From positions 1 to 42,814 of the forward strand of contig JASMMD010000009.1 of the NCBI GenBank assembly GCA_030748335.1: a DNA stretch of 42,814 nucleotides, written 5' to 3'. Source of the DNA: Candidatus Thalassarchaeum sp. GTDB lineage: Archaea > Thermoplasmatota > Poseidoniia > Poseidoniales > Thalassarchaeaceae. Below the pieces are notes generated by a model, which saw nothing but the letters and a program-made list of their open reading frames with translations, searched no databases and was not told the origin of the DNA. How positions within the stretch are numbered: position 1 is the stretch's first letter; each line of letters opens with the position of its first letter. Made by a program: the position numbers and the translations under genes. This document shows positions 9,799 through 17,745 of this stretch, piece by piece.

Positions 9799-10137
9799 TT
9801 AGTCACCCAGACTTTCCCACCAGTTGCCGGGAGTTCCTGTCTCACCAGTGGAGTCGGAATGCGACTCGTCATCCCCCAGTGTCACCTCGTCCATCCCGAC
9901 AATCTCATAGTTCGAGGGGAAAAGTGCGATTATGACTCCTGCCACCATGCACCCCAGCCCTAGGTAGAACGCCTGCTGTACCACCATCAGTTCGAGTCCA
10001 ATCGCGAACAGTACCAGTCCGCCTAGGTTGGAAACCCATACTAGGGTCTTGAAGGTAGATAGGGAGACTCCGCTGGAGCGATTACTCCTCTTGGGGCCAA
10101 ACTCCGCCCCGAATCTCACAGGCTCCTTGTCGTCCAT
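9799..10137 (-). CDS. Small two-helix membrane protein of the respiratory operon
   Basis: A 112-residue protein with two hydrophobic helices (about 31-49 and 55-73), a basic N-terminal segment ('GPKRSNRSSG') and an acidic, Ser/Thr-rich C-terminal tail ending '...WWESLGD'. No motif is recognised. The stop of the alkyltransferase start region is 1 nt away and the ferredoxin gene ends 8 nt upstream, so it belongs to the same transcript as the cytochrome/HdrD operon. A small accessory subunit of the membrane complex is the natural guess, but this is inference from position only. Confidence 0.65.
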   Translation of the reverse strand: MDDKEPVRFGAEFGPKRSNRSSGVSLSTFKTLVWVSNLGGLVLFAIGLELMVVQQAFYLGLGCMVAGVIIALFPSNYEIVGMDEVTLGDDESHSDSTGETGTPGNWWESLGD

Positions 10138-10145
10138 GATAATCC

Positions 10146-10499
10146 CTACCTGTCAATCATGATTATCGCATCGGTGGGGCAACCAAGGACGCATAGCTTA
10201 CATCCCGTGCACTCGTCTCTGAGTATTCTGGCCTTGCGATTGACCTCCACCTCCATGATGGGGCTTGCCAGAGGGGTGTCGTACAACTCTATGGCGTCGT
10301 CATCACACACGATGGTGCATTGGTCGCAGCCTATGCACAGCTCCTCCTTCACCCACGCGACAGCATCATCCCCTCCCTTGATCTTGGCTTCCTCCTCGGC
10401 TCTCATTGAATCGAGCATGATGCGGATGCGCTTCTGCTCAGCGGCCCGACGGGCCAGTAGGTCCGGAATCTCCGTCACGCCCGGCAACTGGTGGCTCAC
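10146..10499 (-). CDS. 2[4Fe-4S] ferredoxin-like electron carrier with helical N-terminus
   Basis: A 117-residue protein with two four-Cys cluster motifs: C55-C58-C61-C65 ('CIGCDQCTIVC') and C97-C100-C103-C107 ('CTGCKLCVLGCP'). The first motif is followed by Asp instead of the usual Pro. Residues 1-50 are a charged helical extension ('LLARRAAEQKRIRIMLDSMR'), absent from simple ferredoxins, and could dock onto a partner. The two cluster halves are separated by a longer-than-usual 31-residue insert. The GTG at 10499 is the only good start. It lies 34 nt downstream of the HdrD-fusion gene on the same strand, so it is the likely soluble electron partner of that subunit. Confidence 0.82.
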   Translation of the reverse strand: MSHQLPGVTEIPDLLARRAAEQKRIRIMLDSMRAEEEAKIKGGDDAVAWVKEELCIGCDQCTIVCDDDAIELYDTPLASPIMEVEVNRKARILRDECTGCKLCVLGCPTDAIIMIDR

Positions 10500-10533
10500 A
10501 TTCTCAATGTATGCTTGCCGAGCTTTCGCCTCA

Positions 10534-13341
10534 TTACCTTGAGTTAACCTGTCGAGCTAGGAAGCTGACCACGTCAAGGATCTCAAAGTCGTGACGGGGA
10601 TCTCCCTCAAACTTCAGGCACTCGAAGTGGGCTACGCACTTCGGACAGGTAGTCAGCATGACCTCAGCTCCTGTCGCCTTCACCTCATCGAATCTTTGCA
10701 GGCGCAGGGCCCTACTGTTCTCATTGCAGGCCATCATGCTGGAGACGCCGCAGCACAGAGCATCCTCACCATGGTGCTCCATCTCAACAAGGCTGACCCC
10801 GTCGACTGACTCCACTAGGTCCCGGGGCTTGTCGTACAGGTCCATCTGACGTCCGAGGCGGCATGGGTCGTGGTAGGTGACGGTGACGTCGTCCTCAACC
10901 ATCAAATCCATGTCGAAACCCTTCTCGACTAGGTATTCGGTGGTGTGCATTACCTTCATCCCCTCCAACTCGTAGTCGAGGGCGAAAGTCCGGAAGCACT
11001 CGGCGCAAGACGTCACTAACGTGTCTATCCCACTGTCACCCAGTTTCTTCTGGTTGTACGCCTTTAGCTTCTCAAAGACCTCGGACAGGCCCTGCCACTT
11101 CTGATCATGGCCGCAACACTTCAGGAAGTCACGACCGAGATAGGTGACGTCATTGTCCATCTCATTGAACAGCGTGAATGCAGCGGTTGTGGTCTCACCC
11201 AGATTCATCTCACCCTCGTTAACGTGACTGAATATCATCTCCTGATCGATGTAGTCGACACACCCTGGGTAGTAACCAACGTTGGAGTCTATCGGGTAGT
11301 CTTCGACTGCCACGAAGGCGTCGTCGGAATCCTCCTCGGCTTCGGCGGCAAGGACCGCTTGGAGCAGCGTGTGCGGAATCTCTGTGGCAGGCGGACCACC
11401 GACTATCAGGTTCCGGCGAATGTCGACGTAGGAGTCGTAGTCCACCAACTGAGGGCAGGCATTGGTGCACGCAGTACACGTCAGGCACGAGTACAGGGGA
11501 ACTCCATCATCCTCGTTGTTCCATGTGTTGTAGATTATGTTGAGCTTGTCACCGGCATTGAACAGCCTGACAGGGCAGGCGTCGTCGCAAAGGTCACAGC
11601 CGTAGCACTTATTCATCTCCCATTCGTATCCTCGAGCCATGCTGCGCATGACCAAGAAAACGATTGCCCCTACGCCCAAACAAGGGATGAACATGCTGTA
11701 GATGAGCTTGGCATCGAGTCCCTTGGGATTCTTGTGGTATGTCGGGTTTTCAAGCGAGAGCGCTGTTAATTCATCAAGACCTAGGGTTGATTCGGACCTG
11801 ACTAAGGCCGTCCCATCATCACCCAGAAGGAGTGGCTGGTAGGCTACCGCAGAGAAGTCGGTGGCCATGGAAATCGACTCGTTGACGTCCTCCGAGGTGA
11901 ACGAGAAGCTCACCGTATAGCTCGCTCCGGCTAACAGGTAAATCTCAGTGGACTCGCACGTGTCTCCCTCGTTCTCCCACAGCACCGAACCAGAAGAGTC
12001 CAGCAAACTGATACTCTGAGAGTGCACCCCGATGTTCCGGGCGGAGTCGCCCGTATCACTGTAGACCGTCCGGAATGAGCAACCCACATCAGTAGGAACT
12101 CTTGAGATTCCGAGATCCTCCACTTCAAACGTGCTGCTGTCGGAGACAGCGATTGGCGACTCGTCGAAATTACCTAGGTAAGTAACGGTGGAACCACCAG
12201 CGTTCCTACCTATCTCGGAGTCAGCATGGCCGTTGTCCCCGGCGAAGTCTATGATGGCCTTCTTGGTCGGCTGGTGGATTCCCCAATTAACCCAATTTGC
12301 AGCCGCTATCACACACCAGTCGGAAGTATCCTCGTGCTCGAAGTCAAAGTCTTCCCACACAGCCAAAGTCTGCGTCTCAGAGTAGGGCAGGCAGTCATCC
12401 TCCCATTCCGCCCATACGTTGCCCTTACCTTCGTGTACAAGGGTGTCCGAGGGCTGACCACGCATCGCATCGAGATCCTCATATTCGTCCATTGCACCAA
12501 GGCCACCGTAGTCCCAGAACCCACTATCGTAGATTGGCCACGTGACCACCGAGATGATTACAGCGGCAGCAATAGAACCGATTGCAATCTGCCTCCCAAT
12601 AATCGGACTGAGTCTAGCGCCGATTGAATTGAGGACGAACCACCTGACGCCGAAGTAGATCACGGCGAATAAGAAAATCCCCGTCAACACCCATGGTATG
12701 GCATTGAACACGTCAGCGGTCCAAGGAGCCTGTCGGCCGCAGAACAGGTAGTTGTGAGAGTCTGACCAGCAGTAATTGGTTAGGTCCTTGGAGTATAACT
12801 CTAGGAAGATGTTGATCGAGAATACCGAGATGAACCAGACATGAGCGAGATACACAGCGCCCGCTGTGGCGAACCACGGGTCCTCCACGCCCCGCTTCTC
12901 CCTCTTGCCGATTATGAAGGGCGGGAGAGCGAGGATACCGACGGGAATGCCAGTAAGGGCCGCCCCCCACCAACCAGCGTTCCAAGCGATTACCGGCGTT
13001 CCGAAGAAGTCCCCTATCGGACCGGCGGGGATGATGAACTGAGGGAGGTACTCACCCCACCTCAGGTATCCGTATGAGAACAGGACGTACCAGTCTGGGA
13101 ACACGAAACCGGCTTGTGCGAACGGGTCTGCCGCACTGTGCAGCGGCGGTGGGATGATCCAAGAGTAGAATGAGATTACCGCCATAATCGCGGCCAGAAT
13201 TATGCTGTCCCTGATGATCTCCGTCGGCCAGAAGGCGTGACCCACGAAGACACGTCGCCTCTCCTCATCGGCCTCGAGTAACTGGTCTCTTTCCCTCATG
13301 TAGGTGTCAGCGATCCTTCCGAACCTGTCGATCATTCCCAT
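10534..13341 (-). CDS. Fusion: cytochrome b subunit IV + ectodomain + HdrD-type iron-sulfur/CCG module
   Basis: A 935-residue three-part protein. Residues 1-270 are a cytochrome subunit IV-like domain: a first helix (44-62), then 'PPPLHSAADPF' and 'PDWY' (82-85, the Qo-site PEWY), and four further helices (about 121-144, 158-180, 211-235, 250-270). Residues 271-545 are a polar, beta-rich domain with C317, C343, C421 and C462. A last helix (546-567) leads to an HdrD/GlpC-like part: clusters C579/582/585/589 and C619/622/625/629, then two CCG motifs (C694, C742-743, C779/782; and C827, C863-864, C899/902). Positive loops (146-150, 233-250, 566-570) put the iron-sulfur part in the cytoplasm and the beta domain outside. 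The ATG follows GAGGTAATC. It sits between the b6-type gene and a ferredoxin gene. Confidence 0.88.
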   Translation of the reverse strand: MGMIDRFGRIADTYMRERDQLLEADEERRRVFVGHAFWPTEIIRDSIILAAIMAVISFYSWIIPPPLHSAADPFAQAGFVFPDWYVLFSYGYLRWGEYLPQFIIPAGPIGDFFGTPVIAWNAGWWGAALTGIPVGILALPPFIIGKREKRGVEDPWFATAGAVYLAHVWFISVFSINIFLELYSKDLTNYCWSDSHNYLFCGRQAPWTADVFNAIPWVLTGIFLFAVIYFGVRWFVLNSIGARLSPIIGRQIAIGSIAAAVIISVVTWPIYDSGFWDYGGLGAMDEYEDLDAMRGQPSDTLVHEGKGNVWAEWEDDCLPYSETQTLAVWEDFDFEHEDTSDWCVIAAANWVNWGIHQPTKKAIIDFAGDNGHADSEIGRNAGGSTVTYLGNFDESPIAVSDSSTFEVEDLGISRVPTDVGCSFRTVYSDTGDSARNIGVHSQSISLLDSSGSVLWENEGDTCESTEIYLLAGASYTVSFSFTSEDVNESISMATDFSAVAYQPLLLGDDGTALVRSESTLGLDELTALSLENPTYHKNPKGLDAKLIYSMFIPCLGVGAIVFLVMRSMARGYEWEMNKCYGCDLCDDACPVRLFNAGDKLNIIYNTWNNEDDGVPLYSCLTCTACTNACPQLVDYDSYVDIRRNLIVGGPPATEIPHTLLQAVLAAEAEEDSDDAFVAVEDYPIDSNVGYYPGCVDYIDQEMIFSHVNEGEMNLGETTTAAFTLFNEMDNDVTYLGRDFLKCCGHDQKWQGLSEVFEKLKAYNQKKLGDSGIDTLVTSCAECFRTFALDYELEGMKVMHTTEYLVEKGFDMDLMVEDDVTVTYHDPCRLGRQMDLYDKPRDLVESVDGVSLVEMEHHGEDALCCGVSSMMACNENSRALRLQRFDEVKATGAEVMLTTCPKCVAHFECLKFEGDPRHDFEILDVVSFLARQVNSR

Positions 13342-13350
13342 GTGATTACC

Positions 13351-14217
13351 TCAATGCGGCTCCGCGATGCCTTGTACCCAGACAATGAATAAGTGAGCCA
13401 GAATCAGGCCGGTCACCACCACAGGGAGGATGAAGACGTGTAGGAAGTACATCCTAGTCACTGTCTGGCCAGAAAGAGTGGTTCCTGCGAACATCGCCTT
13501 GGCCACCCAACCGCCTATCAACGGGGTCGAGTTGGCCATGTTGATGCCGATGGTAGCTGCGCCGAAGGCCAGACTATCCCATGGCAGCAGGTAACCCGAG
13601 TATCCGAAGAAGATGGTGAAGAACATCAACGCCACGCCAATCAGCCAGTTCAACTCGCGTGGGTTACGGTACGCCCCGGTGAAGTATACTCTACACATAT
13701 GCAGGAAGACCGCTGCCACCATGAAGTGCGTCGTCCAGTGGTGTATCGACCTCAGAATGTACCCGAAGGGCAACTCCACCATGATGAACTCCATGCTGAG
13801 ATAGGCAGGCGATGGAGTCCCTTCTCCTCCCGGGACGTAGTAAAGCCCCAGCACGGTACCGGAGATCACTAGTATCACGAAGGCGAGGAACGAGATTCCC
13901 CCGAGGCAGTACAGGGGGTACCAGTACCATATGATTCGCAACTTATACTTCTCAGCGTGCGTTAACGGCATCTGCCTGTGCATGTGATGATATGCGTCCT
14001 TGCTCATGCCCCAGTAGTCTTGAATCCTGAATCTGGTATCGAGCCAAGAGAATGCCCACAGGAACCCCTTCTCCGCTAGTCCCATGCTGCCAGCACTGGT
14101 CTCGACGGCCCGGAGGATGTCGGTCCTGGGCATGTCGTCCCGCTCCTTTCGAAGAGTGAAGGCAACTAGGACGACCACGATGGCGATGAAAAGCCAGAGG
14201 AACCAGAATTGAATCAT
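13351..14217 (-). CDS. Cytochrome b6-type subunit of a quinol:acceptor oxidoreductase
   Basis: A 288-residue haem b protein covering the N-terminal four-helix half of cytochrome b, plus an extra N-terminal helix (2-20). Haem ligands by alignment to b6 are H159/H260 and H173/H275; 'RSIHHWTTHFM' and 'FLHMCRVYFTGAYRNPREL' carry the first of each pair, and 'YFLHVFILPVVVTGLILAHL' the second. The second-helix spacing of 15 (260 to 275) is the b6 type. 'YCLGG' puts C104 where b6 proteins bind the extra haem cn. The ATG at 14217 follows AGGTGAT, better than the TTG one codon before. It lies directly between the Rieske gene and the subunit IV fusion, so the complex has the split b6/IV layout. Confidence 0.92.
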   Translation of the reverse strand: MIQFWFLWLFIAIVVVLVAFTLRKERDDMPRTDILRAVETSAGSMGLAEKGFLWAFSWLDTRFRIQDYWGMSKDAYHHMHRQMPLTHAEKYKLRIIWYWYPLYCLGGISFLAFVILVISGTVLGLYYVPGGEGTPSPAYLSMEFIMVELPFGYILRSIHHWTTHFMVAAVFLHMCRVYFTGAYRNPRELNWLIGVALMFFTIFFGYSGYLLPWDSLAFGAATIGINMANSTPLIGGWVAKAMFAGTTLSGQTVTRMYFLHVFILPVVVTGLILAHLFIVWVQGIAEPH

Positions 14218-14225
14218 CAAATCAC

Positions 14226-15083
14226 CTAATCACAAAATGTGTACCAGTCAACGAAGTCGTCGAGGGCCTCGATGATTCCCGCCCCGTTGACCTCGAATGG
14301 AATCAGCGGCATACCCATCGGCGCAGGGCCACCGGTTCGCTTGACCCCGATGAACTCGAACTCTGTGCCATTGGTCCTGTTTCTGTTACGGTTCTTCTCG
14401 ATCACAGTCGGGTCGTACCTGCTAGAGTGGCAGATGCAGAACAGCTTGTTGCCGCCCGCATCGACCCCTCCGGGCATCCATTGATCACTGGTGAAGTCAT
14501 TGCTCACCAACTGCCAGCCAGGAATGCAGCACAGATGCGGGCACCTAGCGAAGATGATAATCATGTTGTCATGGATAGAGAGTGCCTCGTACTCGGGCTT
14601 CTCCTCGACCTCGTAGCCGGATCCCACGTACCCCCCACTCTCGTCGTAGCCGTCCATTAGTTGAAATCGCGGCTTGTTCTCCGCCGGCGGAGTCGGGGCG
14701 TTCTCATCGTGAGGGACGTAAATCACTAGGACAGGAAGGCCTGACCAGACTCCTGATGCCCCCGCCATCCCAGTCGCCGAGGTCGCAGCGGCATCCACGA
14801 AAGACTGGTACTGCATCTGCTCTAGGTGCATGTCGCCGTACCAAGCCGAATCCTCAGCTCCGGTTGGGACCCAGAACCTCACCGACGAGTCACCTCCGTC
14901 GGAATCTGATTGCCCCATCAGTAGCGAAGCGAAGCCAATCGCCCCTAGGCTCGCCATCGTGATGACTCCGGCGGCGGTGTTGAAGGAGTGGCGCATGAAC
15001 TCCCTACGGTCGATGAGATTGGGCGTCTCGGGAGAGTAATCGGACTCGCCCGAGATTGATCTAAGTCTAAATCTCCTAGCCAT
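14226..15083 (-). CDS. Rieske [2Fe-2S] protein with Tat-type N-terminus
   Basis: A 285-residue protein. Cluster motifs are 'CPHLCC' (C181, H183, C186) and 'CICHSSRYD' (C216, C218, H219); C181/H183/C216/H219 bind the cluster and C186/C218 would form the stabilising disulfide. C185 replaces the usual Gly. The N-terminus has 'DRREFMRHS' followed by a hydrophobic helix ('GVITMASLGAIGFASLLM'), a Tat-type anchor, so the Rieske head faces outward. Residues 65-170 are a long, Gly/Ser/acidic-rich insert before the cluster fold. Two adjacent ATGs overlap the stop of the upstream gene; the second (15083) has the better distance to GAGGTG. It would take electrons from quinol at the Qo site of the two cytochrome b subunits. 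Confidence 0.92.
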   Translation of the reverse strand: MARRFRLRSISGESDYSPETPNLIDRREFMRHSFNTAAGVITMASLGAIGFASLLMGQSDSDGGDSSVRFWVPTGAEDSAWYGDMHLEQMQYQSFVDAAATSATGMAGASGVWSGLPVLVIYVPHDENAPTPPAENKPRFQLMDGYDESGGYVGSGYEVEEKPEYEALSIHDNMIIIFARCPHLCCIPGWQLVSNDFTSDQWMPGGVDAGGNKLFCICHSSRYDPTVIEKNRNRNRTNGTEFEFIGVKRTGGPAPMGMPLIPFEVNGAGIIEALDDFVDWYTFCD

Positions 15084-15085
15084 CA

Positions 15086-15535
15086 TCACACCTCGTACTG
15101 TCTCCAACCGTCTGGATCATTGGAGGTGATGTACTTGTTTCCCCTATGCTTGACGATAACGACATCCGGCATCACGAACTTCAGGTACACCATGCCTAGA
15201 ATCATAATTGTCAGCATGAGCATGCCAAAGTTGAACGAGAGCAGTTGCTGGTCCCATCCGTTGAACAGCCCGTAGGTCAGACCTCCCGCCCAGTACAGGC
15301 TCCATACGACTCCCCAGAGCGATAGCAGGAGTATCAGGATGGATTCGCCGAAGGGAGAGACCGAGGCCCGCACGACCGTGCCTGCCTCTGGCTGGTTGAA
15401 CACCCCGTGGTCGACAGCAGCACTGAACTCCTCCGTGGTCAGGACTGTGCCCTCCAAGGCGACTCGAGCGTCCTCTACGCTGACTTCGCCTGACTTGACC
15501 TGCCTGAGCAGTTTCGTCACTACGTCTTCCTTCAC
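15086..15535 (-). CDS. Two-helix membrane protein of the respiratory operon
   Basis: A 149-residue protein of no recognised family. Residues 1-50 contain two short amphipathic helices ('VTKLLRQVKSGEVSVEDARVAL'), similar in style to small SHOCT-like oligomerisation segments. Two membrane helices follow (about 64-84 and 97-118), then a charged tail ending 'DGWRQYEV'. It starts with GTG overlapping the stop of the exported CxCH protein gene (GTGA), preceded by GAGGTGA, and its own stop overlaps the Rieske start. Such coupling suggests stoichiometric subunits; an assembly or structural subunit of the cytochrome complex is inferred. Confidence 0.75.
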   Translation of the reverse strand: MKEDVVTKLLRQVKSGEVSVEDARVALEGTVLTTEEFSAAVDHGVFNQPEAGTVVRASVSPFGESILILLLSLWGVVWSLYWAGGLTYGLFNGWDQQLLSFNFGMLMLTIMILGMVYLKFVMPDVVIVKHRGNKYITSNDPDGWRQYEV

Positions 15536-16365
15536 AACTGGTCACCTCTTCGAAGATGCTTGATCCTGAGACGCAGTAGATTGCTCCTACCGGTGTAGTG
15601 CCTTGAGAAGCCGTAACGCAGGAACAGGCCGCAGAAGAGCAACACGATGATTACTGCTGCGAACCCGAGCAGGCCGAGCCAGTGCGCTCTCAATCCGGCC
15701 CCCATCTCGTGAATGTCCACGCCATGCTCGGCTGCGGCCGGTGGCTCAATATCCCCGTTACCGGAGAATACAGTACGCGTACTACCGTCGTCAGCACCCT
15801 CTTCGATGGTGGTCGAGAGCCTGTTCCAGTTGTCTAGGGCACTGGGGGCCTGATCACCGTTGACTGAGTTACCTGCGAGCCAGATCGTGACGGCCCCAAC
15901 ACCCGTTGCAGGTGCGGTCCAGAGGACGTGCCACGACCTGTCCTCGGTCTGTGCTCCCGAGCTGGTGTGAGTTAGCCGGGATAGATCATCCTCCCAGTTC
16001 TGCACCATTGTTTCATACCCTTCCCCCGCACCTAGGGTCCCTGAACTGACCATCATCGAGAAACCGGCTGTGTTCGACGTGGTATCCGGATCAGGACCTC
16101 CTATCAACTGGATTGTGAGATCGTACTGTCCTCCTGCCTCGTAATGGTAGGGCAGGCCTTCGATGAGAACCGTGACTGAGTTGTCAGGCTCCTCGCTGTG
16201 GCAGGTGCACCCTGCTATGGAGACATCTCCTACCTCGTCCGCATTGCCTCCGATGCCGAGGTGAGATGCCTGCGTGCCTCCCGCTACGAGTAGGGCTATC
16301 ATCCCCAGTACGAAGACTCTCTGGGAGTATGCTTGAACCCTGCTCACACTAACCCCCCAAGGCAC
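15532..16365 (-). CDS. Exported, C-terminally anchored protein with a CxCH motif (choice-of-anchor V-like)
   Basis: About 277 residues: signal peptide ('VFVLGMIALLVAGGTQASH'), then 'AGCTCHSEEPDNSV', a beta domain with 'YHYEAGGQYDLTIQLIGGPD', and one C-terminal helix ('WLGLLGFAAVIIVLLFCGLFL') with a basic cytoplasmic tail. The Cys/His motif followed by this reeler-like beta domain matches proteins called choice-of-anchor V, which normally carry CxxCH; here it is Cys-Thr-Cys-His, one residue short of a c-haem site. It heads the operon, so it may sit where cytochrome c1 or f would. Start is uncertain: GTG 16365 fits a TATA box ~26 nt upstream, GTG 16347 follows GGGGGG, and GTG 16377 is the outermost. 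Confidence 0.72.
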   Translation of the reverse strand: MPWGVSVSRVQAYSQRVFVLGMIALLVAGGTQASHLGIGGNADEVGDVSIAGCTCHSEEPDNSVTVLIEGLPYHYEAGGQYDLTIQLIGGPDPDTTSNTAGFSMMVSSGTLGAGEGYETMVQNWEDDLSRLTHTSSGAQTEDRSWHVLWTAPATGVGAVTIWLAGNSVNGDQAPSALDNWNRLSTTIEEGADDGSTRTVFSGNGDIEPPAAAEHGVDIHEMGAGLRAHWLGLLGFAAVIIVLLFCGLFLRYGFSRHYTGRSNLLRLRIKHLRRGDQL

Positions 16366-16388
16366 GGACGAAGCCACCTAGAATAGGG

Positions 16389-16496: not shown

Positions 16497-16802
16497 GTGT
16501 CAGGGCCCCAATGGCGTAATGTCTACCGCCTCTCGGAGGAGCAGTTGAGGTTGCTCGAAGAGGCAGAGGGGTGTATGGAGATGCTTGACATCAACCAGGC
16601 TGAATCTATACTGTTGGCTCTTCTAGAGGAGGATTCGGACTGTGTGCCCGTGCTCAACAACCTCGGTCATATGTATGGCCGCTACCTATCCGAGTGGGAG
16701 GCCGCCATAGAGTACTACGACCGCGTCCTGCATATAGAGCCGGACAATGCATGGGCACGAGATGAGAGACGCAGATATCAACGCCTGCTGTCCTATGATT
16801 GA
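16497..16802 (+). CDS. Small TPR-repeat protein
   Basis: A 101-residue, mostly helical protein with tetratricopeptide features. The clearest repeat, 'VLNNLGHMYGRYLSEWEAAIEYYDRVLHIEPDN' region (about 52-84), shows the TPR pattern W/L-x2-L-G...Y...A...F/Y...A...P; an earlier degenerate repeat lies around 18-48. TPR proteins are scaffolds for protein binding; the partner is unknown. The GTG at 16497 is the only suitable start and has no ribosome site, so the mRNA may be leaderless. The FtsZ-like gene begins 37 nt downstream, so the two may form an operon. Confidence 0.7.
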   Translation: MSGPQWRNVYRLSEEQLRLLEEAEGCMEMLDINQAESILLALLEEDSDCVPVLNNLGHMYGRYLSEWEAAIEYYDRVLHIEPDNAWARDERRRYQRLLSYD

Positions 16803-16839
16803 GCACAATCTAAACGGCCCCTGCCACGAGGGGCGCCGC

Positions 16840-17745
16840 ATGGACGAAGGCTCGATTCTGGTTGTTGGCGTCGGGGGGGTCGGTTGCACCTGGGCCGAGA
16901 GGGCCCACAAGAGTTGCACCGAACTGGCCGATTTGCTGCTCATCGACGCCGATGAGACCTCGTTCGCTGGAGCGGCAACAGCTCACTGCCTGCACCTCGA
17001 TGCGGGTGGGGACGGACGGGGCACGGCAGCGCTTCCCGAGCTCGCGGCCCACCGACTCAGGGACGGCATCGGCTCCGTGGCCCCGTTGCTTGAGCGAGCG
17101 GAGCTTATACTCATGATGACGGGACTGGGAGGCGGGACAGGTTCCGGGGCCTCTGCCGAACTGGCCTTCTTGGCGCGAGAGAGCGACTGCCTAGTGATCA
17201 CTATTGCCGGGCTGCCCTTCGCCGAGCAGCCCTTGCGCTGCAACATCGCCGAGGCCGCCATGCCAGCGCTCGAGCAGAACTCCCATGTCTGCATCAGAGT
17301 CAGCATGGAAAGGCTCGCTTGGCAGGCCCGCCGCAGGGACGAGGATTGGAGGGCCGGCTCGGGTTGGATAGGGGAACTGGTCGAGGGGTTGGTAACCACA
17401 CTCGCGAAGGTGGGCAAGATAAACCTCGATCTGATGGATCTCAGGACCGTCATCAACAGGCCCGGCAACGCCACACTGATTGTCGGGACAGGGACCACAG
17501 ACAAACCGGAGCAGGTCGTGCGCGAGGCTCGCAAGTCGCCGTTATCCGACCTCACCGTGGATGGGGCCAGTGGCTGCATGATCCAGGTCGAGGGCGGACC
17601 TGACATGACCTTGTCCCACCTGAACGAGGTCACCGACGCTTTCGTCTCTTCCCTCGATCCCGACTGCCAGGTCATCATGGGAGCGAGGGCCAGTGACGAA
17701 ATGGTTGGCCGTATTAGGCTGGTAGCTGTGGTCAGCGGACTTTGA
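16840..17745 (+). CDS. Divergent FtsZ/tubulin-family GTPase
   Basis: A 301-residue protein with the FtsZ fold. The N-terminal nucleotide-binding loop is 'ILVVGVGGVG' (6-15), the tubulin signature 'GLGGGTGSG' is at 95-103, and the T7 catalytic loop 'GKINLDLMDLRTVI' (about 191-204) keeps N-x-D-x-x-D, so GTP hydrolysis on polymerisation is possible. The end 'VIMGARASDEMVGRIRLVAVVSGL' matches the last strand of FtsZ. It lacks any C-terminal tail for membrane-anchor partners and is shorter and more divergent than standard FtsZ (about 350-390), so a role other than main cell division is likely. The ATG at 16840 follows GAGGGG; upstream in-frame ATGs overlap the TPR gene. CetZ-like is less likely given the T7 loop. 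Confidence 0.8.
   Translation: MDEGSILVVGVGGVGCTWAERAHKSCTELADLLLIDADETSFAGAATAHCLHLDAGGDGRGTAALPELAAHRLRDGIGSVAPLLERAELILMMTGLGGGTGSGASAELAFLARESDCLVITIAGLPFAEQPLRCNIAEAAMPALEQNSHVCIRVSMERLAWQARRRDEDWRAGSGWIGELVEGLVTTLAKVGKINLDLMDLRTVINRPGNATLIVGTGTTDKPEQVVREARKSPLSDLTVDGASGCMIQVEGGPDMTLSHLNEVTDAFVSSLDPDCQVIMGARASDEMVGRIRLVAVVSGL

Follow-up and report, generated by a model that had tools for sequence, protein, structure and literature searches.

The closest described counterparts of the complex treated here lie in two directions. Haloarchaeal petABC complexes resemble the cytochrome b6f complex and also lack cytochrome f and c1, with halocyanin as the probable acceptor (PMC8305020). In mycobacterial EtfD, the structure revealed an HdrD wire whose clusters can carry cytosolic electrons as far as haem b and menaquinone (PMC13083937). 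For Marine Group II (MGII) archaea, cytochrome b and Rieske proteins without a canonical bc1 complex have been reported and a peculiar complex III was remarked upon; a fusion of b6f subunit IV (PetD) with HdrD was not described (PMC6336850). The current study concerns such a fusion and its operon in a stretch of 42,814 nucleotides (nt), hereafter the window, from a metagenome-assembled genome (MAG; 1.16 Mb, 81% complete) of Candidatus Thalassarchaeum sp. (Poseidoniales, MGII; GCA_030748335.1, contig JASMMD010000009.1). Poseidoniales, which are aerobic heterotrophs, rank with the most abundant archaea in surface seawater. A run of seven closely packed genes on the minus strand (16377-9799), read as one operon, very probably encodes a b6-type complex III that carries a functional cytoplasmic Hdr module.

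The PetD-HdrD fusion and its operon

The operon leads from an exported GCxCH protein via a protein with two transmembrane (TM) helices, a Rieske protein, cytochrome b6 and the PetD-HdrD fusion to a ferredoxin and a second two-TM protein, with spacings of -4, -22, +5, +9, +34 and +8 nt (Table 1). An earlier note on this DNA had proposed a tight seven-gene operon of these families, and all open reading frames (ORFs), gaps and family matches were borne out. Cytochrome b6 contains the four haem-b His as RSIH/LH and LH/H pairs with spacings of 14 and 15 (aligned to 1q90_B), and its Cys105 falls over Cys35 of Chlamydomonas b6 (1q90_B), the haem-ci anchor. The conservation of this Cys, found in 107 of 114 loci, suggests a haem ci on the archaeal b6. 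The Rieske boxes of the window are CPHLCC and CICH; across about 100 loci, the first reads CPHLCC or CTHLCC and the second CICH or CPCH. The PDWY of the fusion is a Qo motif that has been described as a low-potential-chain form (PMC6349771). A c-type acceptor subunit (cytochrome f or c1) was not found in the operon, where the GCxCH protein with a Reeler fold is present instead.

Two CCG domains (E=2e-21) and Fer4_8 were matched in the fusion protein. A profile of 40 fusions resembles b6f subunit IV at one end (2e74_B, E=5e-5, profile positions 31-97) and EtfD (9ojn), HdrC and HdrB at the other, where a 2[4Fe-4S] domain followed by two CCG domains follows the plan of HdrC plus HdrB or of HdrD. 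Six TM helices with positive-inside loops are predicted, placing PDWY and an ectodomain of about 270 residues outside and HdrD in the cytoplasm. Topology and cofactor ligands thus agree with the earlier assignment of the Rieske protein to the outside, the quinone site to the membrane and the HdrD clusters to the inside. The ectodomain, a GOLD-like beta-sandwich between TM5 and TM6 (AlphaFold2 [AF2] pLDDT of about 88; Foldseek match to the GOLD domain 5azx, E=9e-5), is absent from the Marine Group III (MGIII), G135 and G130 forms.

The fusion is one open frame with end-to-end alignment in 42 of 60 genomes, and nine more contain a frame of 935-943 residues, so that a wrong join at 11700-11760, the weak point named in the earlier note, does not account for it; the remaining genomes are mostly interrupted at contig ends. 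Sought in other archaeal genomes, the fusion was found in about 50 of 60 relatives. The full gene order stands at 57 of 123 loci, among them loci that share a species; most of the rest show part of it, many being truncated at contig or locus ends. Mean pairwise identity is highest in the [4Fe-4S] domain (96%; PetD, 81%; ectodomain, 47%), and dN/dS of the iron-sulfur part amounts to 0.00-0.02, with dS near saturation. The eight ferredoxin-type Cys and the CCG Cys are invariant among the 40 aligned fusions. Across 128 proteins, the first CCG pair is CC in 121 and CS in seven and the second is CC in 127, the variants being confined to MGIII, whose first site has lost part of its motif (CS or CxxG), and a few MGII proteins. 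The distance matrices agreed poorly with that of cytochrome b (r=0.40); nothing is concluded from this value, as wrong picks of cytochrome b ORFs are suspected.

Wiring in related lineages and accessory proteins

Among 390 Thermoplasmatota genomes surveyed, the fusion was found only in Poseidoniia and in small CSMAG and groundwater lineages (one genome scan gave the best 80 of 509 relatives). MGIII joins PetD to the HdrC part only and encodes HdrB separately; its ferredoxin either carries a fused flavodoxin (PF00258, E=7e-27) or is of a four-cluster type. The cold-seep MAGs CSMAG_327 and CSMAG_707 combine a Big_5 ectodomain and cytochrome b in one ORF, and their PetD-HdrD has 606 residues without an ectodomain, with an HdrA-FlpD gene overlapping its stop codon. 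The N-terminus of their cytochrome b fusion reads CGNTEGCHG, to which the choice_anch_V model gives no match; this segment may be the counterpart of the GCxCH domain. A 4TM-PetD-HdrD of 789 residues occurs in a groundwater Thermoplasmata MAG, and the G119/G141 family has a plain, unfused PetD in its b6 operon and a halocyanin-type copper protein at the place of the GCxCH gene. That relatives have re-joined these parts repeatedly is the strongest argument for a single complex. Together with topology, cofactor ligands and conserved order, the alternative fusions support the membership in one membrane complex that the earlier note had put forward, and the operon products are accordingly best pictured as a single, predicted assembly.

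The exported protein (AF2 pLDDT 81) has F-spondin Reeler domains as its best folds. Gene checks relating to physiology covered 11 Thermoplasmatota genomes, ten in the case of Ccm, and System I Ccm genes were present in 10/10. A covalent haem on the GCxCH protein is therefore conceivable as a possibility, albeit CxCH is not a canonical haem motif; the protein is a predicted outside electron carrier, and its replacement by a halocyanin-type protein in G119 suggests a role as outside electron acceptor. The DUF7318-like subunit has clear matches at the same operon place in MGIII, the cold-seep MAGs and G119, with a control match in Haloferax volcanii.

The operon ferredoxin is the best match to the RnfB model in its genome, yet its 43-45 bits lie far under the cut-off of 68.7, and membership in an Rnf complex is not supported by this match. 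For MGII, RnfACDEG were reported absent and an orphan RnfB was reported (PMC6336850). Since the operon ferredoxin is the best RnfB-like match of the genome, it is probably this orphan and hence the likely explanation of a puzzling gene. The last two-TM protein corresponds to a protein of the G119/G141 family (hhalign probability 94%) that bears a cytoplasmic glutaredoxin-like domain (PF05768, E=5e-15; L081:4728-5174, L082:5026-5481). As separate observations, contig C7 of the source genome (G000) encodes a protein that combines a flavodoxin domain with a Fer2_3 domain of the succinate dehydrogenase type (L004:1743-3227), beside an HdrB/SdhE-like CCG protein (L004:883-1740); by eye, this flavodoxin resembles the one fused to the MGIII complex III ferredoxin. 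In the window, a divergent FtsZ/tubulin-family gene (16747-17745, plus strand) lies near the operon start.

Table 1. Features of the complex III operon in the window
Feature	Position	Strand	Evidence
Exported Reeler-fold protein, invariant GCxCH, C-terminal TM	15532..16377	-	choice_anch_V E=4e-26; AF2; motif conservation
GCxCH motif of exported protein	16198-16212	-	kept in 69/69 homologues
DUF7318-like accessory subunit, two TM	15086..15535	-	PF24002 E=3e-5, slightly under cut-off
Rieske [2Fe-2S] protein	14226..15107	-	TIGR01416 E=6e-10
Cytochrome b6, additional N-terminal TM	13351..14220	-	PF00033 E=7e-40; four haem-b His
Putative haem-ci Cys105 of cytochrome b6	13906-13908	-	aligned over b6 Cys35
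Fusion protein, 935 residues: PetD + 2 TM + ectodomain + TM + HdrD	10534..13341	-	
PetD (b6f subunit IV) part of fusion	12787..13341	-	profile match to 2e74_B, 7r0w_J, 1q90_D
Qo motif PDWY of fusion	13087-13098	-	invariant in 40/40 aligned fusions
TM4 + TM5 of fusion, MGII forms only	12526..12726	-	alignment; hydropathy
Outside beta-sandwich ectodomain of fusion, MGII only	11722..12525	-	AF2 + Foldseek
TM6 of fusion, runs straight into first [4Fe-4S] motif	11638..11721	-	AF2 helix 541-568; hydropathy
HdrC-like 2[4Fe-4S] domain of fusion, eight invariant Cys	11392..11637	-	invariant alignment columns
HdrB-like CCG domain pair of fusion, each with five-Cys set	10546..11289	-	PF02754 x2
2[4Fe-4S] ferredoxin, RnfB-like	10146..10499	-	PF14697 E=1e-12
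Two-TM protein, last operon gene	9799..10137	-	hydropathy; homologue in G119/G141

Direction of electron flow and alternative readings

The reading favoured here, at roughly even probability, is a b6-type menaquinol-oxidising complex III whose HdrD port feeds low-potential cytoplasmic electrons to the inner quinone site. Subunit IV would anchor the HdrD (HdrC plus HdrB) iron-sulfur wire in the membrane. Menaquinol would be oxidised at the outer Qo site, from which one electron would pass via the Rieske protein and the exported GCxCH Reeler protein to a terminal oxidase, while the other would travel along the haems b and reach haem ci and the inner quinone site. On this inner side the HdrD clusters would end as well, importing low-potential electrons from the operon ferredoxin or, in relatives, from flavodoxin or HdrA, perhaps by way of a thiol. 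The inner quinone would thus receive one haem-chain electron and one cytoplasmic electron, a scheme also found in certain models of cyclic flow through b6f driven by ferredoxin, and the enzyme would overall be a protonmotive menaquinol oxidase with a second electron source at its inner quinone site. That the quinone is menaquinone, which protein accepts electrons outside and in which direction they flow are all predictions from sequence. Electron entry at haem cn/ci from the negative side (n-side) of the membrane is an existing model of cyclic flow in b6f (PMC9720722).

For an inward flow from the cytoplasm as such, the arguments for and against are about evenly balanced. 2-Oxoacid:ferredoxin oxidoreductase (POR/KOR) was detected in ten of the 11 genomes and NuoH in all of them, NuoF in two, which indicates that MGII and MGIII make reduced ferredoxin, probably without an NADH-type complex I. 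HdrD modules operate in both directions, and because ferredoxin oxidoreductases are present and NuoF is mostly missing, an input of low-potential electrons is at least as likely as an output. The interpretation in the earlier note is borne out in part: a link between the quinone pool and the cytoplasm would be given by the Hdr port, whereas the low-potential cytoplasmic reaction that, according to the note, the complex might drive is a less probable reading, the reverse use discussed below. The absence of NuoF from 9/11 genomes contrasts with the MGII complex I, which was called canonical (PMC6336850).

Several points weigh against the favoured mechanism. The five-Cys sets at both CCG sites would fit thiol/disulfide chemistry better than a plain wire, and in HdrDE, where a membrane carrier supplies the electrons, HdrD homologues also reduce disulfides. 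A complex I without NuoF would already offer ferredoxin an outlet, the ferredoxin gene is not adjacent to the operon in some MGIIa, and the haem-ci position is Ser in three MGIII loci. AF2 confidence is low precisely at the interface of PetD and the [4Fe-4S] domain, too low to yield a distance from haem to cluster.

The strongest competitor, rated as unlikely though a serious possibility, is a reverse use of the same parts, with bifurcation at Qo and a low-potential electron passing via the haems b and HdrD to a cytoplasmic disulfide (or to ferredoxin, with HdrA or the membrane potential). The five-Cys sets, as in catalytic HdrB, the overlap of HdrA-FlpD with the PetD-HdrD stop codon in CSMAG_327 and the glutaredoxin-like domain in G119/G141 would suit such a function, but the MGII operon lacks HdrA, electron movement towards the negative side would have to overcome the membrane potential, and other thiol reductants are presumably available to aerobes. 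DsrC, a known partner of HdrD-type proteins, was tried as the disulfide partner and rejected, as it was not found in any of the 11 genomes.

It is improbable that the HdrD module is a membrane receiver for ETF or another cytosolic dehydrogenase (EtfD-, GlcF- or LutA-like) that is merely fused to complex III. EtfAB occurs in 11/11 genomes, MGII degrade fatty acids (PMC6336850), and the closest solved structure is EtfD (9ojn). The same genome, however, encodes a separate and far closer EtfD homologue of 713 residues (9ojn, E=1e-106; L002:964-3102; G000 contig C11, ~40970-43100), which makes a role of the fusion as ETF-quinone oxidoreductase unlikely; beta-oxidation electrons probably reach menaquinone by this EtfD route of their own. 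In addition, the first CCG site is CC here and CT in EtfD, and the operon lacks a dehydrogenase gene.

Just as improbable is an ordinary complex III to which HdrD is appended for structure or redox sensing and has no turnover of its own. The b6 operon of G119/G141, unfused and without HdrD, and the partly degraded first CCG site of MGIII would be in line with it, but neither the eight ferredoxin-type Cys nor the second CCG set varies, redox partners were recruited repeatedly, and the extreme purifying selection on the iron-sulfur part argues against an idle appendage. That two genes were joined artificially during sequencing or assembly has a vanishingly small probability: about 50 genomes, which represent two families, share the same frame, as do named records from many independent projects, and no point in favour of such an artefact was found.

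Comparison with known systems

Each part of the complex is known; new is the union of Rieske/b6 and HdrD in one polypeptide, in several lineages and with several wirings. No description of the PetD-HdrD arrangement was found in the open-access literature searched, subscription papers and supplements lying outside that search, and within this scope the possible novelty raised in the earlier note is upheld. As nearly all ligands tested mark the core as ordinary b6-type and the new function is a prediction, the enzyme is regarded as a variant of complex III and not as categorically new. It is a tentative proposal, held with somewhat less than even confidence, that one enzyme couples quinone bifurcation or confurcation at Rieske/b6 to cytoplasmic Hdr chemistry, exchanging ferredoxin or thiol electrons with quinol electrons via haem ci and HdrD, and would represent a new kind of respiratory complex in several lineages.

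The complex III of Poseidoniales, previously listed as non-canonical or missing, is now identified and probably possesses an additional electron port that opens to the cytoplasm. Hdr modules can evidently plug into a Rieske/cytochrome b enzyme and be rewired with ferredoxin, flavodoxin, HdrA and glutaredoxin across one phylum. The fusion would be a natural case in which a covalent wire links cytoplasmic electrons with a b6-type complex at its n-side, a step in some models of cyclic flow that has so far been hard to test.

With HdrDE and HdrABC, the fusion shares the HdrC-like 2[4Fe-4S] domain and two five-Cys CCG domains, and HdrA is encoded next door in the CSMAG lineage only; the membrane partner is a Rieske/b6 complex (PetD/b6) and not HdrE, and the methanogenic CoM/CoB are not known in these archaea. 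QmoABC and DsrMKJOP also link Hdr-type subunits to the menaquinone pool, but they do so through NarI/HdrE-type cytochromes without Rieske protein or Qo bifurcation. The best match in fold and sequence is mycobacterial EtfD (9ojn; PMC13083937), a membrane-anchored HdrD wire to menaquinone, which differs in its 5-TM haem-b anchor with neither Rieske protein nor Qo site, where the fusion has subunit IV, and in its linear [3Fe-4S] site (CT), where the fusion has CC. Like b6f, Firmicutes b6c and haloarchaeal petABD, the complex possesses a split cytochrome b (b6 plus subunit IV), a Rieske protein, the haem-ci Cys and the Qo motif, and like haloarchaea it has a DUF7318-like subunit; unlike all three it combines the lack of cytochrome f or c1 with a GCxCH Reeler protein, the PetD-HdrD fusion and an operon ferredoxin.

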